From assembly GCF_004923205.2 (NCBI RefSeq), contig NZ_SELD02000018.1:248001-312000 (forward strand): 64,000 nucleotides of DNA. Reading direction: 5' to 3'. The notes below the pieces were generated by a model that saw nothing but the letters and a program-made list of their open reading frames with translations, had not been told where the DNA came from and did not search any database. This stretch comes from Paracoccus aeridis. GTDB taxonomy: Bacteria; Pseudomonadota; Alphaproteobacteria; Rhodobacterales; Rhodobacteraceae. Positions 2,705-62,836 of the stretch are shown piece by piece (position 1 is the stretch's first letter; each line of letters starts with the position of its first letter). The translations under genes and the position numbers were made by a program.

Positions 2705-4123
2705 ATGACAGACAGTTTCCTGCCCTTTCAGCAGTTGATCGACCCCGGCCGCGCGCTGCGGATCCTGCGCGACGCGACCGACGGCGCCGACGACGGCGAG
2801 CTGTTCCTGGAACGCACCCGGTCCGAGTCGCTGGTCTTCGACGACCGCCGCCTCCGCAACGCGGGATACGGCGCGGCGCAGGGTTTCGGCCTGCGTGCGG
2901 TGCGCGGAGAGGTCACCGGCTACGCCCATTCGACCGACATCTCGGAAGCCGCGCTCCGCGACGCCGCCGACACCGCGCGGCTTGCCGTGGGCGCGGGCGG
3001 CGGCATCATGGCACCCGCGCCGGGGGGACCGGGACCGGCGCTGTACCAAGGGCTCGACCCCGTGCAGGGGATCGACTTCGCGGCCCGCGTGGCCACCCTG
3101 CGAGATATTGACGCATACGCCCGCGACCTCGACCCGCGGGTCGTCCAGGTGACCGCCTCGCTGGCCTCGTCGCTGCAGGAGATCGCCATCCTGCGCCCCG
3201 AGGGCGGGATCGTCACCGACATCCGCCCGATGGCGCGGCTGAACGTGTCGGTCATCGTGGAATCGAACGCGCGGCGCGAAAGCGGCAGCGCCGGGGGCGG
3301 CGGCCGCCACGGGCTTTCGGCGCTGATGGACCCGGCGCACTGGCAGGGCCTCGTCGCCGAGGCGCTGCGGATCGCGCTGGTGAACCTGCGCGCGGTCCCC
3401 GCGCCGGCGGGCGTCATGGACGTGGTGCTCGGCCCCGGCTGGCCCGGGATCCTCCTGCACGAGGCGGTGGGCCACGGGCTGGAAGGCGACTTCAACCGCA
3501 AGAAGGCGTCGGCCTTCGCCGGGCTCGTCGGCACCCGCGTGGCCGCGCCCGGCGTCACCGTGATCGACGACGGCACGATCCCCGACCGCCGCGGCTCGAT
3601 CACGGTCGACGACGAGGGCACGCCGCCCGCCCGCAACGTCCTGATCGACGACGGCGTCCTGCTGGGCTACCTTCAGGACCGGCAGAACGCGCGGCTGATG
3701 GGCGTGGACCCGACCGGCAACGGGCGGCGCGAAAGCTTCGCCCACGCACCGATGCCGCGGATGACCAACACCTTCATGCTGGCGGGGAACGACGATCCGG
3801 CCGCGATCCTGTCGGGGCTGGACGACGGCATCCATGCCGTGGGCTTCGGCGGCGGTCAGGTCGACATCACCTCGGGCAAGTTCGTGTTTTCCTGCACCGA
3901 GGCGTACCGCGTGAAGAACGGCGTCGTGGGCGATCCGATTCGGGGCGCCACGCTGATCGGCGACGGGGCGACCTCGCTCCAGCATGTGCGCGGGGTCGGG
4001 AACGACCTGAAGCTGGACCCCGGCATCGGCAACTGCGGCAAGCAGGGGCAATGGGTCCCGGTGGGCGTGGGCCTGCCCACGCTGAGGATCGGCGGCCTGA
4101 CGGTGGGCGGCTCGGCGGCCTGA
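2705..4123 (+). CDS. tldD: Metalloprotease TldD
   Basis: TldD/PmbA family zinc metallopeptidase, which works as a TldD-TldE heterodimer to process unstructured peptides such as modified peptide precursors. The HExxxH zinc motif of the family is visible as HEAVGH at residues 252-257, followed by GLEGDFNRKK. The protein has 472 aa, close to the usual 470-480. The ATG at 2705 was chosen because the family's N-terminus begins just after it; open sequence upstream lies in the promoter gap. The partner gene (pmbA/tldE) is not in this window. Confidence 0.96.
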   Translation: MTDSFLPFQQLIDPGRALRILRDATDGADDGELFLERTRSESLVFDDRRLRNAGYGAAQGFGLRAVRGEVTGYAHSTDISEAALRDAADTARLAVGAGGGIMAPAPGGPGPALYQGLDPVQGIDFAARVATLRDIDAYARDLDPRVVQVTASLASSLQEIAILRPEGGIVTDIRPMARLNVSVIVESNARRESGSAGGGGRHGLSALMDPAHWQGLVAEALRIALVNLRAVPAPAGVMDVVLGPGWPGILLHEAVGHGLEGDFNRKKASAFAGLVGTRVAAPGVTVIDDGTIPDRRGSITVDDEGTPPARNVLIDDGVLLGYLQDRQNARLMGVDPTGNGRRESFAHAPMPRMTNTFMLAGNDDPAAILSGLDDGIHAVGFGGGQVDITSGKFVFSCTEAYRVKNGVVGDPIRGATLIGDGATSLQHVRGVGNDLKLDPGIGNCGKQGQWVPVGVGLPTLRIGGLTVGGSAA

Positions 4124-57903: not shown

Positions 57904-58692
57904 TCAGGCGTCGAGTTCGACCCAGACCGGGACATGGTCGCTCGGCTTTTCCGTCCCGCGCTGGTCGCGGTCGATCCCGGCGTCGCGCAGAAGGTCGGCG
58001 GCCTGCGGCGACAGCAGCGCGTGGTCGATGCGGATGCCGTTGTCGCGTTCCCACCCCTGGCGCTGGTAGTCCCAGAAGGTGAACGGCCCCCGGGCGGCGT
58101 TCGGCGCGCGGATGCGGATGGCGTCGGTCCAGCCCTGGTTGACGATCCGCCGGAACGCGGCGCGCGTGTCGGGCATGAACAGCGCGTCGTCCACCCAGCG
58201 TTCGGGATGGGCGGCATCCCGGTGCTCGGGGATGACGTTGAAGTCGCCCAGCATCACCGCCGGCTGCTCGGTCGCGAGGATCGCCGCCGCATGGACCCGC
58301 AGCCGCTCCATCCAGGCGAGCTTGTAGTCGTATTTCGGCCCCGGCGCGGGGTTGCCGTTGGGCAGGTAGAGCCCCGAGATGCGGACCGCCGCCTTCGCCC
58401 CGGTCACCGTTCCCTCGATGAAGCGGGACTGCTCGTCGGCCTCGTCTCCAGGCAGGCCGCGGCTGACGTCCTCGACCGGCAGGCGCGACAGGATCGCGAC
58501 GCCGTTCCAGCTTTTCTGGCCGTGGGTCCAGACGGTCCAGCCGAGATCCTCGATCACCTCGGACGGGAAGCCCTCGTCCACCGACTTGATTTCCTGCAGC
58601 ACCACCACGTCGGGCTGCGCGTCGGGCAGCCAGGCGGTCAGCTGGTGCAGCCGCGCCTTGATGCCGTTGATGTTGAAACTGGCGATCTTCAT
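57904..58692 (-). CDS. xthA: Exodeoxyribonuclease III
   Basis: The AP endonuclease/3'-exonuclease of base-excision repair. The 262-aa protein begins MKIASFNINGIKARL and has the catalytic glutamate in VVLQEIKSVDEGFP, LGDFNVIPEHRDA with Asp and Asn, and a C-terminal RIDHALLSP plus SDHVPVW with the active-site histidine. It is followed on the same strand by the PPDK-like gene and preceded by a radical SAM gene. Confidence 0.97.
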   Translation of the reverse strand: MKIASFNINGIKARLHQLTAWLPDAQPDVVVLQEIKSVDEGFPSEVIEDLGWTVWTHGQKSWNGVAILSRLPVEDVSRGLPGDEADEQSRFIEGTVTGAKAAVRISGLYLPNGNPAPGPKYDYKLAWMERLRVHAAAILATEQPAVMLGDFNVIPEHRDAAHPERWVDDALFMPDTRAAFRRIVNQGWTDAIRIRAPNAARGPFTFWDYQRQGWERDNGIRIDHALLSPQAADLLRDAGIDRDQRGTEKPSDHVPVWVELDA

Positions 58693-58762: not shown

Positions 58763-58790
58763 GCGTCAGAACAGCGGCGTCAGAACAGCG
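58763..58790. repeat. 14-bp tandem duplication across the radical SAM stop codon
   Basis: GCGTCAGAACAGCG occurs twice in perfect tandem. The right copy carries the last codons (SLF) and the TGA of the radical SAM gene; the left copy is just after the stop. Confidence 0.9.
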
Positions 58791-59859
58791 AAAGCTGGTC
58801 GCCCGCACGCGGCGGCGGGGCAAAGCGGCTCGCGTCGAGCGGCGGGCTTTCGGTCGCGTAGCCCAGCCGCTTGCGGGCCAGCCTGAAGCGCTGGTGCAGA
58901 AGCTCCGCCTCCACCCCCTCGCCCTTCATGCGGGTGCCGAAGCGGGGATCGTTGTCGCGGCCGCCGCGCATGGCCTGGATGCGCGTCATCACGTGGCCGG
59001 CCTTGCCGGGGTGATGGCGCTGCAGCCAGTCGCGGAACAGGGGCGCCACCTCAAGCGGCAGGCGGACCGGGATCATGCTGGCGGTGTGCGCGCCCGCCTC
59101 GCGGGCGGCGGCAAGGATGGCCTCGACCTCGTGCGCGGTCAGCACCGGGATCATCGGCGCGCACAGCACGCGGACCGGCACGCCAGCCGCGGCCAGCGCC
59201 CGGATCATCGCGAGACGGGTCGCGGGCGCGGGCGCGCGCGGCTCCATCCGCCGCGACAGGTCCGCGTCCAGCGTCGTGACCGACACGCCGACGAAGACCT
59301 GCTGCCGCGCCGCCATCGCCCCGATCAGGTCGAGGTCGCGCAGGATCGTGCGGCCGCGGGTCACGATGCTGACCGGGTGGTTCCAGTCGTGCAGCACCTG
59401 CAGGCAGGCGCGCATGATCCCCATCTTCGCCTCGGCCGGCTGATAGGGGTCGGTGTTGGTGCCGAAGGCGATCGGGCCCACCGCGTAGCCGGGGCGCGCG
59501 ATTTCCGCCGCGAGCAGGCGCGCGGCGTCCGGCTTGGCGGTGATCCGGGTTTCGAAGTCCAGTCCCGGCGACAGGCCGAGATAGGCGTGGGTCGGGCGCG
59601 CGAAGCAGTAGATGCAGCCGTGCTCGCAGCCGCGATAGGGGTTCACCGACCGGTCGAACGGCACGTCGGGGGACTGGTTGCGGGTGATGATGCGGCGCGG
59701 CTGTTCCGTCGTGACCTCGGTCCGCAGCACGCGTTCGTCCCGCTCTCCCTCCCAGCCGTCATCCTCGATCTCGGTCGTGTAGGGCTCGAACCGGGCCGCG
59801 GGGCGGTTCGCGGCACCGCGCGCCTTCAGGATCTCATCGGGGTCGCGGGCAGGAAGCAT
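58780..59859 (-). CDS. PA0069-family radical SAM protein with C-terminal QLSLF
   Basis: A 359-aa radical SAM enzyme. The iron-sulfur cluster motif is CEHGCIYCF (CxxxCxxC) within NPYRGCEHGCIYCFARPTH, with GTNTDPYQPAE and VSIVTRGRTILRDL as family segments. The group is related to COG1533 (spore photolyase-like), and the substrate is unknown. The last residues GDQLSLF match the QLxLF peptide by which many proteins bind the DNA sliding clamp. It lies upstream of xthA on the same strand, which fits a DNA-repair role, but this is inference. Confidence 0.92.
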   Translation of the reverse strand: MLPARDPDEILKARGAANRPAARFEPYTTEIEDDGWEGERDERVLRTEVTTEQPRRIITRNQSPDVPFDRSVNPYRGCEHGCIYCFARPTHAYLGLSPGLDFETRITAKPDAARLLAAEIARPGYAVGPIAFGTNTDPYQPAEAKMGIMRACLQVLHDWNHPVSIVTRGRTILRDLDLIGAMAARQQVFVGVSVTTLDADLSRRMEPRAPAPATRLAMIRALAAAGVPVRVLCAPMIPVLTAHEVEAILAAAREAGAHTASMIPVRLPLEVAPLFRDWLQRHHPGKAGHVMTRIQAMRGGRDNDPRFGTRMKGEGVEAELLHQRFRLARKRLGYATESPPLDASRFAPPPRAGDQLSLF

Positions 59860-59973
59860 GGACGCAGGTTAGAACAAAATACGAACAAAATGCAAGAACG
59901 ATGATCGAACGGGGGGACTTCCCTCCCCGCGGCCCGGTCCCCATATTGAAAGGCGGAGACGAGGAGCGAATCG

Positions 59974-60159
59974 ATGCCCCTGCCACATTTCCTGATGATG
60001 CTGGCCGCCGTCGTGGCCGCGGCCGCGGTGACGCTGTGGCTGGCGATCTCGCTGGGCGTGTCGTTCGGGGCGGTCGCGCTGGTCGTGCTGGTCGCCGCGG
60101 CGGTGCTGCACTTCACCCGTCCAGGCGACGACCATCCGCGGCATCATCCCGGCGCCTGA
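59974..60159 (+). CDS. Small two-helix membrane protein (61 aa)
   Basis: A 61-residue protein with two hydrophobic helices (about residues 6-25 and 29-46) and a polar His/Arg/Asp end (HFTRPGDDHPRHHPGA). GAGGAGCGAA precedes the ATG. No family is recognised. The stop codon lies inside the first unit of a 14-bp tandem repeat. Confidence 0.7.
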   Translation: MPLPHFLMMLAAVVAAAAVTLWLAISLGVSFGAVALVVLVAAAVLHFTRPGDDHPRHHPGA

Positions 60160-60208
60160 GGCGGGGTGCCTGAGTCGGGGTGCCTGAGTCGGGGCGCCTG
60201 AGTCGGGG
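60153..60208. repeat. Minisatellite: four 14-bp units
   Basis: Four tandem copies of a (C/T)GCCTGAGTCGGGG unit at 60153, 60167, 60181 and 60195. The first has one mismatch and includes the stop codon of the 61-aa protein gene. Confidence 0.9.
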
Positions 60209-60234
60209 CGCCGGATCCGGCCTGAAGGCGCGCG

Positions 60235-60837
60235 TCAGCTTTCCAGCTCTGCGTCCCAGTACAGGAAATCCATCCAGCTGTGGTGCAGGTGGTTCGGCGG
60301 GAAGCGCCGGCCGACCGCGTGCATTGCCTCGGCCGTGGGCCGCTCCGGCGCGCGGCGCAGCTTGAGGCCCGAGTTCCGCAGGCTCTTGTTCGCCTTCTTC
60401 AGGTTGCAGGGCGAGCAGGCAGCGACGACGTTTTCCCAGCTCGTCACCCCGCCGCGCGACCGCGGCACCACGTGGTCGAACGTCAGGTCGCCCCTGGCGC
60501 CGCAGTACTGGCAGCAGAATTCGTCCCGCAGGAAAAGATTGAAGCGCGTGAATGCCACGCGCTTCTGGGGTCTGACGAATTCCTTGAGCACCACGACCGA
60601 CGGTATCCGTATCGCCGATCGCTGGCTTCGGACCACGTCGTCGTATTCCGCGAGGATCGTGACCCGGTCGAGGAACACGGCCTTCACCGCCTCCTGCCAG
60701 GGCCAGAGCGACAGGGGATAGTAGGACAGCGGGCGGAAATCGGCGTTCAGCACCAGCGCCGGATTGCGCCTGAGCGATGACGGGTCACGCACGAACTGGG
60801 TGCGGAAATCCGTGTTCAGCTGCCGCTCGTCGAGCAT
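60235..60837 (-). CDS. HNH endonuclease family protein
   Basis: A 200-aa protein with an HNH domain in the middle: two zinc-binding CxxC pairs (FCCQYCGARG and AACSPCNLKKANKSL) enclose the catalytic TFDHVVPRSRGGVTSWENVV. The preceding 90 residues (LVLNADFRPLSYYPLSLWPWQEA) are typical of a chromosomal HNH family widespread in alphaproteobacteria, whose role is unknown and not linked to restriction here. ATG 60837 lies about 55 bp after a well-formed promoter. Confidence 0.93.
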   Translation of the reverse strand: MLDERQLNTDFRTQFVRDPSSLRRNPALVLNADFRPLSYYPLSLWPWQEAVKAVFLDRVTILAEYDDVVRSQRSAIRIPSVVVLKEFVRPQKRVAFTRFNLFLRDEFCCQYCGARGDLTFDHVVPRSRGGVTSWENVVAACSPCNLKKANKSLRNSGLKLRRAPERPTAEAMHAVGRRFPPNHLHHSWMDFLYWDAELES

Positions 60838-60894
60838 GTCGCGTGATCCGTCCCTTCGTCTGTCGCCTGCCGCCGGGTCGTCGCATTCCCGGCA

Positions 60895-62194: not shown

Positions 62195-62836
62195 TCACCT
62201 GACGCCTTCGCGCCCCTTCGCGGTGCCGTAATAGGCCCAGAGCGCGCGGGCCGCGACCGACCGCCACGGCCGCCACGGCTCCGCCATCGCGATCAGCGCG
62301 GCGGGCGTGGGGCGTGCGGGCAGGTCGAACATCATCCGCGCCGCCTCCTGCAGCGCAAGGTCGCCCGCCGCGAAGGCATCGGCGCGGCCGAGCGCGAACT
62401 TGAGATAGATCTCCGCCGTCCAGCGCCCGATGCCGGGCAGCGCGACCAGCGTCTGCGTCACGTCGTCGTCGGGCAGGGTCCGCAGCGCGGCCCAGTCGGG
62501 CGCGGCCGCCGCGATGCCGCGCAGGTAGCGGATCTTCTGCGCCGACAGCCCGCAGGCCCGCAGCGCCTCGTCGGAAGCCGCCGCGATCGCGGCCGGGTCG
62601 GTCAGCCCCGCGGCGTCCAGCCTGGCCCCGATCGCGTCCGCCGCGTGGGTGGACAGCTGCTGCGAGACGACCGCGTTCAGGATCGCGGAAAACCCGTCCT
62701 CGCGCCGGCGCAGCGGCAGGGGCCCGAGTCCGGGCAGCACCCGCGCCCAGACCGGGTCCACCGCGGCAAGGAAGGCGAGCCCCTCCTCCAGGTCGGACGG
62801 CTCGCCGATCAGGCGCATGGCCGGCATTCCCGTCAT
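62195..62836 (-). CDS. DNA-3-methyladenine glycosylase II (AlkA-type)
   Basis: A 213-aa HhH-GPD glycosylase that removes alkylated bases. The helix-hairpin-helix with its Gly/Pro loop is LVALPGIGRWTAEIYLKFAL, and the catalytic aspartate follows in DAFAAGDLALQEA. QQLSTHAADAIGARL and SAQKIRYLRGIA also match the family. It is shorter than E. coli AlkA because the N-terminal domain is absent. Its ATG overlaps the stop of the GntR gene (ATGA), so the two are coupled. Confidence 0.95.
   Translation of the reverse strand: MTGMPAMRLIGEPSDLEEGLAFLAAVDPVWARVLPGLGPLPLRRREDGFSAILNAVVSQQLSTHAADAIGARLDAAGLTDPAAIAAASDEALRACGLSAQKIRYLRGIAAAAPDWAALRTLPDDDVTQTLVALPGIGRWTAEIYLKFALGRADAFAAGDLALQEAARMMFDLPARPTPAALIAMAEPWRPWRSVAARALWAYYGTAKGREGVR

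Follow-up and report, generated by a model that had tools for sequence, protein, structure and literature searches.

PA0069-family radical SAM proteins carry a conserved, probably clamp-binding C-terminal peptide behind LexA boxes: candidates for an SOS-induced DNA-repair enzyme

Introduction

Why should a radical SAM protein end in a peptide that resembles the motif by which proteins dock on the bacterial sliding clamp? The question is raised by a gene in a 64,000-nucleotide stretch of the Paracoccus aeridis genome (contig NZ_SELD02000018.1, positions 248,001 to 312,000; hereafter the window, with positions counted from its first letter). A preliminary description of this DNA read the last residues of the gene product as a clamp-binding peptide, related the protein to COG1533 and spore photolyase, and proposed an uncharacterised DNA-repair enzyme that the clamp recruits. 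It held that this reading would stand or fall with the conservation of the pentapeptide in the family and with the binding of the peptide to DnaN, took the neighbouring exonuclease III gene as a further hint to function, and pointed out a 14-bp duplication at the end of the gene.

Both halves of the proposal touch on published work. The clamp consensus QL[S/D]LF has been revised to Q-phi-x-[L/M][F/L] and Q-phi-x-[L/M]x[F/L] in the available excerpts of PMC13254535, and a consensus of the same QL[S/D]LF type is given in those of PMC4549789 and PMC9690074. As to regulation, the relevant part of PMC3323433 (2012) predicted SOS control for splB of alpha- and beta-proteobacteria, and the SOS networks of Gram-positives, Balneolaeota, Bacteroidetes and Streptomyces are reported to include radical SAM proteins (excerpts of PMC7739468, PMC8565304 and PMC9380542). 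An SOS-controlled radical SAM member has therefore been on record since at least 2012 (PMC3323433), and the portions of these papers that we examined name neither its substrate nor its place of action.

Results

The gene encodes a PA0069-family protein

The gene lies on the minus strand at 58780..59859, running from an ATG at 59859 to a stop codon at 58780-58782, and encodes 359 amino acids. Its translation ends in GDQLSLF, of which the QLSLF codons (58783..58797, minus strand) form a predicted sliding-clamp-binding motif, judged from the sequence and from the family conservation described below. The protein matched NF033668, the NCBIfam model of the PA0069 family, with 477.8 bits (cut-off 360) over model positions 1-348 of 348, and the Pfam radical SAM model PF04055 with 57.3 bits (cut-off 29.5). 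The next-best family model, that of Rv2578c (NF038135), gave 234.4 bits, below its cut-off of 430, which places the protein outside that family. C78, C82 and C85 make up the cluster motif CxxxCxxC and were invariant in all 130 aligned sequences. The window protein is therefore a PA0069-family member of the radical SAM superfamily, and the family assignment and the ending GDQLSLF of the preliminary description are both real, with the NF033668 match reaching the last position of the model.

The C-terminal pentapeptide is conserved across the family

To read the C-termini of the family we used an even draw of 299 Pseudomonadota genomes, in which 117 had a match and 111 exceeded the NF033668 cut-off. 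The 111 C-termini read comprise 30 and 80 loci from the genome draw together with the window; the counts leave out the six of the 117 genomes that fell below the cut-off and the extra fragments present in two genomes, G090 and G001 (in the former, at locus L163, two partial PA0069-like fragments lie on the same contig as the intact gene). A second set consisted of the best 80 named loci by likeness to the window protein, giving 191 loci in all.

The pattern Qxx[LM][FLIW] was present within the last 20 residues of 105 of the 111 members, with 6.8 obtained when these same residues were shuffled, and it formed the very C-terminus in 89 (0.46 after the same shuffling). Even Q[LM]xL[FL] was the very C-terminus of 65 members, where the shuffle expectation is 0.025 of 111. 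Among the best 80 named loci 73 end in Q[LM]xL[FL] and 75 in Qxx[LM][FLIW], with 78 carrying the latter in their last 20 residues. As controls we took the ORFs of at least 150 amino acids within 2.5 kb of the gene at the 191 loci, many of them spurious: none of these 2022 ORFs ends in Qxx[LM][FLIW], and 32 have it in their last 20 residues. The six members lacking the pattern in the last 20 residues consist of three with six-residue variant ends (QMALDL twice, QMGLDF once), two in which the pentapeptide precedes an extension, and one with QLTLPGL. Within the 105 motif tails the search pattern itself imposes Q at position 1; at position 4 there are 104 L and one M, and at position 5 there are 71 F, 30 L, two I and two W.

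An alignment was then built from 130 sequences out of the 191: 149 passed a redundancy filter, which removed L168, and 129 of these, with L154 among those dropped, were combined with the window protein; counts for columns, including Q355, L358 and the cysteines, refer to this subset, and tail counts refer to all 111. Q355 was found in 129 and L358 in 127 of the 130 sequences, residues 350-354 were variable or gapped, and an FxxP segment ahead of the tail was again well kept (F346 in 128, P349 in 122). The leucine at position 4 of the motif is encoded by six different codons across the family. Conservation of Q355 and L358 beside a variable flank, together with these six codons, suggests that the peptide is under selection. 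Of the two tests named in the preliminary description the computational one thus came out in its favour, the family alignment of C-termini finding the pentapeptide conserved.

Most tails fit the published clamp consensus

Within the last 25 residues, 55 of the 111 tails fit the printed pentapeptide consensus and 25 more do so with M at position 2; the six-residue consensus, again with M at position 2, fits three further tails, for a total of 83. The likeness to QL(S/D)LF on which the initial proposal was built consequently extends to most of the family. The 28 tails that stay off consensus even with M at position 2 include 21 with G, Q, R or K at that position, four with I or W at position 5, and the tails of L141, L154 and L168.

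For comparison we read the internal clamp site of DnaE in 30 of the same genomes, where Q..[LMI][FLW] stood at one column in 24, G occupied position 2 in five of the 28 genomes read in frame, and the DnaE of the window's genome carried QSSLF. No co-variation of the DnaE and PA0069 motifs was seen across the 30 genomes (in four the DnaE motif starts with M or H and PA0069 keeps Q), so that this comparison shows that variants are tolerable and nothing further. A single DnaN match was found in the window's genome, and its sequence is close to those of clamps with solved structures.

LexA boxes precede the gene in most members

Two LexA (SOS) boxes that the preliminary description had left unremarked lie ahead of the gene on the minus strand, both perfect GTTCN7GTTC: a distal one at 59896..59910, reading GTTCGATCATCGTTC on the gene's strand, and a proximal one at 59872..59886, reading GTTCGTATTTTGTTC on that strand and placed 12 bp ahead of the ATG. 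We take GTTCN7GTTC to be the alphaproteobacterial LexA site and CTGTN8ACAG to be that of other proteobacteria. The former occurs 100 times in the 3.32-Mb genome (a control pattern 40 times), so that about 0.009 copies are expected per 310 bp, and it is also found about 40 bp ahead of the matched part of lexA in the same genome.

The family as a whole follows this division. From -250 to +60, GTTCN7GTTC was present in 67 of 72 members of the window's class and absent from all 39 members outside it; CTGTN8ACAG was present in 28 of these 39 and in none of the 72. The box type of its own group therefore accompanies 95 of the 111 members, with reversed-pattern controls giving 5 and 1 of 111. At the best 80 named loci the numbers were 68 for GTTCN7GTTC and 10 for CTGTN8ACAG (controls 1 and 0). 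An exact box was absent from the -250 to +60 range in 16 of the 111 members, several of which have a one-mismatch box or a box just outside the range, as with the exact box of L198 just beyond it; families f36 and f57 (all six members) and f28 and f51 (all three), nine genomes together, have no exact box. Control of PA0069-family genes through LexA boxes is strongly supported by this distribution, and we infer from the boxes that the genes would be induced by DNA damage. SOS regulation was already known in kind, and the present boxes extend it to the whole PA0069 family.

On the other side of the boxes and divergent from the gene, about 60 bp away, a small ORF (59974-60159, plus strand, 61 residues, no Pfam match) could share them. 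A 14-bp tandem repeat of the unit GGCGCCTGAGTCGG lies at its end (60151-60212; 4.4 copies, 93% matches); it differs from the duplication, likewise of 14 bp, found where the PA0069 gene ends.

The predicted fold is that of spore photoproduct lyase

When the predicted model of the protein was compared with known folds the top six rows were all spore photoproduct lyase (SPL; Z 18.8-19.3 over 266-274 residues, rmsd 3.4-3.8), and the next fold, lipoyl synthase, followed at Z 14.8. The relation to COG1533 and spore photolyase given in the preliminary description is thereby borne out at the level of fold. SPL is also the sole DNA-repair enzyme by title among the 50 fold-match rows. Fold alone reveals this likeness: searches of the PDB by sequence found no SPL with the single protein or with a profile, and the SPL models TIGR04070 and TIGR03886 did not match it even at E values as high as 10, a search in which the HMMER filters may hide weak hits.

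The PDB titles of SPL name mutants of C140, which we take to be the hydrogen donor that returns the hydrogen. No fourth conserved cysteine was found in the 130 sequences, the next column reaching at most 32% Cys. Since a fourth conserved cysteine and a match to the SPL models are both absent, the PA0069 family probably differs from SPL in substrate or in hydrogen path, and its lesion is probably other than the spore photoproduct itself.

Gene neighbourhood, and the question of a DNA substrate

The gene xthA (exonuclease III; 57904..58692, minus strand, over the cut-offs of TIGR00195 and TIGR00633) lies 87 bp downstream of the PA0069 gene in the window and is possibly co-transcribed with it. 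It adjoins the PA0069 gene in one of 191 loci (flanks of about 1.5 kb for L001-L030 and of 4-5 kb otherwise, some limited by contig ends), so that its position says nothing about function. We therefore rejected xthA as a functional partner, and the hint drawn from this adjacency is not sustained. The 14-bp perfect tandem duplication (58763..58790; copies 58763-58776 and 58777-58790, unit GCGTCAGAACAGCG) is real and covers the LF-stop codons as described; it was absent after the stop codon in all five relatives compared, so that the peptide is not its product, and we judge it a local accident and not a feature of the family.

No general DNA-repair operon emerged from the 191 loci, where neighbours vary by lineage, and a conserved repair operon was accordingly rejected. 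RNase HII-like ORFs occur near the PA0069 gene in 57 of the 191 loci (L066 included) and in 29 of 111 in the unbiased set; 54 of the 57 ORFs are downstream on the same strand, and one representative was confirmed by Pfam. Other neighbours, named by eye, are glycosyltransferase-like and MoaB-like ORFs upstream and homocysteine-methyltransferase-like ORFs in Rhodobacterales.

Some further genes near PA0069 loci may be recorded here. About 3 kb upstream in the window lies an HhH-GPD base-excision glycosylase gene (62198-62836, minus strand), which is near the PA0069 gene in seven of the 191 loci, the window included, all of them among the closest relatives. An HNH endonuclease gene (60238-60840, minus strand) reads as an ordinary HNH protein; its matches to IscB and Cas9d models fell far short of the cut-offs. 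In a Sphingomonas replicon (L278) about 0.4 kb separates dnaE from the PA0069 gene, whose tail is QGELF (1375-2442 and 2862-3939), and in two genomes (G087 and G229) the two genes lie within about 6 kb.

Fold, regulation and neighbourhood bear together on what the enzyme would act upon. Even if held at the clamp it might modify not a DNA lesion but a replisome-associated protein or RNA, for example a clamp-bound polymerase, as radical SAM maturases do. Most radical SAM families have a substrate other than DNA, the folds of lipoyl synthase and RiPP maturases appear at Z 14-15, the fourth conserved cysteine is absent, and neighbours vary between lineages, all of which would suit such a role. We nevertheless consider it rather unlikely, given that the fold leading by at least 4 Z units is that of SPL, with no other DNA-repair enzyme in the titles of the 50 rows, that LexA boxes precede the gene in both groups, and that RNase HII-like genes follow it in 57 of the 191 loci. 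On fold and regulation, DNA repair is the probable task of the family.

The tail resembles a docking peptide

The manner in which the tail is attached helps to tell what it does. In the AF2 model, whose mean pLDDT is 94.8, no block scores lower than the last, at 67; between FxxP and Q the linker measures 0 to 34 residues, most commonly 5 (104 read). Both features, as far as a prediction goes, are those of an accessible motif. All SPL alignments stop at model residue 338-339, so that the tail stands outside the shared fold. Moreover, 16 of the 105 motif tails carry 1-10 residues past the motif, which indicates that the carboxyl end is not what matters, and two members (L154 and L168) keep the pentapeptide ahead of C-terminal extensions that run to tens of residues. 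That pentapeptide and hexapeptide forms both occur, and that the motif is kept before extra residues, argues for a docking peptide and not for a signal at the carboxyl end.

These observations also weigh on two readings that dispense with the clamp. The tail could be a structural latch that packs on the radical SAM barrel and shapes the active site, which would suit its conservation at family level and its position near the conserved FxxP (F346 in 128 and P349 in 122 of 130); a linker that varies from 0 to 34 residues, the lowest pLDDT of the model, hexapeptide alternatives, a motif retained ahead of extensions, and SPL alignments that reach no further than residue 338-339 make this improbable. 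The tail could otherwise be a tag by which Lon or ClpXP would clear the protein after repair, the clamp likeness being secondary. Rapid turnover is known for several SOS proteins, and degrons can consist of hydrophobic residues at the C-terminus; one would not expect such a tag, however, to require Q at -5, or to work with 1-10 residues beyond the motif, as in 16 of 105 tails, or with the extensions of L154 and L168, and we find this reading hardly credible here.

The tail thus appears to be a tethered and probably clamp-binding motif, and from its sequence we regard docking of PA0069-family proteins on the clamp as likely; a conserved tail of this kind could also serve another partner.

Sister families have similar tails, distant relatives do not

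Outside Pseudomonadota we covered plasmid and phage records, in which 24 distinct genes were read: three PA0069-type, six Rv2578c-like, six clostridial-type and nine distant COG1533-type. All three PA0069-type genes carry the motif. On replicons of Actinobacteria and Gemmatimonadota, the six Rv2578c-like genes have the ends QLTLL, QLRLL, QESLF, QEPLF, QLALV and QLSLGI, and the five intact clostridial-type genes (three from plasmid records and two from unverified phage clones) show QQSLFD, QLSFF, QLGF, QMSLFE and QMTLADFM; several of these sister-family ends, such as QESLF, QEPLF, QLALV and QLGF, are loose fits. The sixth clostridial-type gene, from Subdoligranulum (L236/L282), was left uncounted owing to its interrupted frame, with an in-frame stop within the core. 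Two actinobacterial genes have GAACN4GTTC upstream, presumably the Gram-positive LexA box.

By eye, none of the nine distant COG1533-type proteins (two of mobile pair protein B, and those of Priestia, Runella, Paenibacillus, Staphylococcus, two haloarchaea and Nostoc) has a clamp-like tail, although one (L242) has QCSLV 17 residues from its end, which could count on the loosest reading. The tail therefore does not look general to COG1533. Viral contigs gave ten loci, four of them cut by a contig end and one (L224) with QLDLF, and no sign of a viral lineage; among phage records there were eight matches, none spanning 80% of the query.

Two of the distant genes have neighbours of their own to report. 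On a Staphylococcus saprophyticus plasmid (L243) the SplB-like radical SAM gene (1546-2307), without a clamp-like tail, has a 2OG-Fe(II) oxygenase gene on one side and a DNA glycosylase gene on the other, with an Ada-domain gene beyond the glycosylase, an arrangement like a small alkylation-repair cluster. On a conjugative Runella plasmid (L239) a radical SAM gene (1450-2298) overlaps a gene for a UvrD-type helicase at the start of the latter.

Discussion

Computation places the protein in the PA0069 family and supplies the conserved tail, the LexA boxes and the fold of the predicted model; together these make it quite probable that the gene encodes an SOS-induced radical SAM DNA-repair enzyme recruited by the clamp, with binding and reaction both predicted. 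DNA damage would lead to LexA cleavage and de-repress the PA0069-family gene. The enzyme, with one [4Fe-4S]-AdoMet core in the fold of SPL, would generate a 5'-deoxyadenosyl radical, and its flexible C-terminal peptide, QLSLF in this case, would dock in the hydrophobic pocket of the DnaN clamp. Docking would concentrate it where clamps remain, on DNA that is gapped or has just been replicated, and the clamp-held enzyme may then reverse a base lesion or a crosslink in place. DNA as the substrate and lesion reversal as the reaction are put forward with less certainty than clamp binding and induction.

If this is correct the fold of SPL would be tied to the replication machinery. The conserved docking peptide points to clamp-loaded DNA, at or behind the fork, as the place of work, and mutation of two residues of the tail would separate recruitment from chemistry. 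More tentatively, and with the balance leaning somewhat against it, the PA0069 family, the Rv2578c family and the clostridial-type relative might make up one class of radical SAM enzymes, spread across bacteria, tethered to the clamp and induced by damage. On newly replicated DNA this class would reverse some lesion distinct from the spore photoproduct, as a repair branch based on radical chemistry that operates at the fork beside translesion synthesis.

Among the literature matches listed, most subscription journals being outside their scope, none ties a radical SAM or SplB protein to the clamp. The words 'radical' and 'photolyase' are absent from the clamp review PMC9690074, and the texts that name 'radical SAM', 'sliding clamp' and 'SOS response' together are, by title, on other matters.

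How, then, does the family compare with known systems? The splB of PMC3323433, an SPL homologue with LexA sites in both classes, is probably the PA0069 gene or a close relative; section 8 of that paper takes it as photoreactivation, treats its regulation as predicted, gives no assay of a substrate and makes no mention of a clamp motif. Clamp-binding repair proteins and transposases with QLxLF share the peptide, often at the C-terminus, and are unrelated enzymes; those named in the available parts of PMC4549789, PMC13254535 and PMC9690074 include no radical SAM protein, in which they differ from the PA0069 family. The LexA-target radical SAM proteins of Gram-positives and Streptomyces (excerpts of PMC7739468 and PMC9380542) may belong to the Rv2578c family. 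That family (NF038135) is the actinobacterial sister and resembles PA0069 in the clamp-like tails of the six genes examined; the window protein falls under its cut-off of 430, whereas L234, one of the six genes, scored 478.9 bits.

The comparison returns in the end to SPL. To our knowledge DNA repair has been demonstrated for no other radical SAM enzyme. The SPL structures (PDB 4FHC and mutants) share with the PA0069 protein the radical SAM class and the same overall fold (Z about 19) at 13-14% identity, and relative to SPL the clamp-like tail is an addition in the PA0069 protein.
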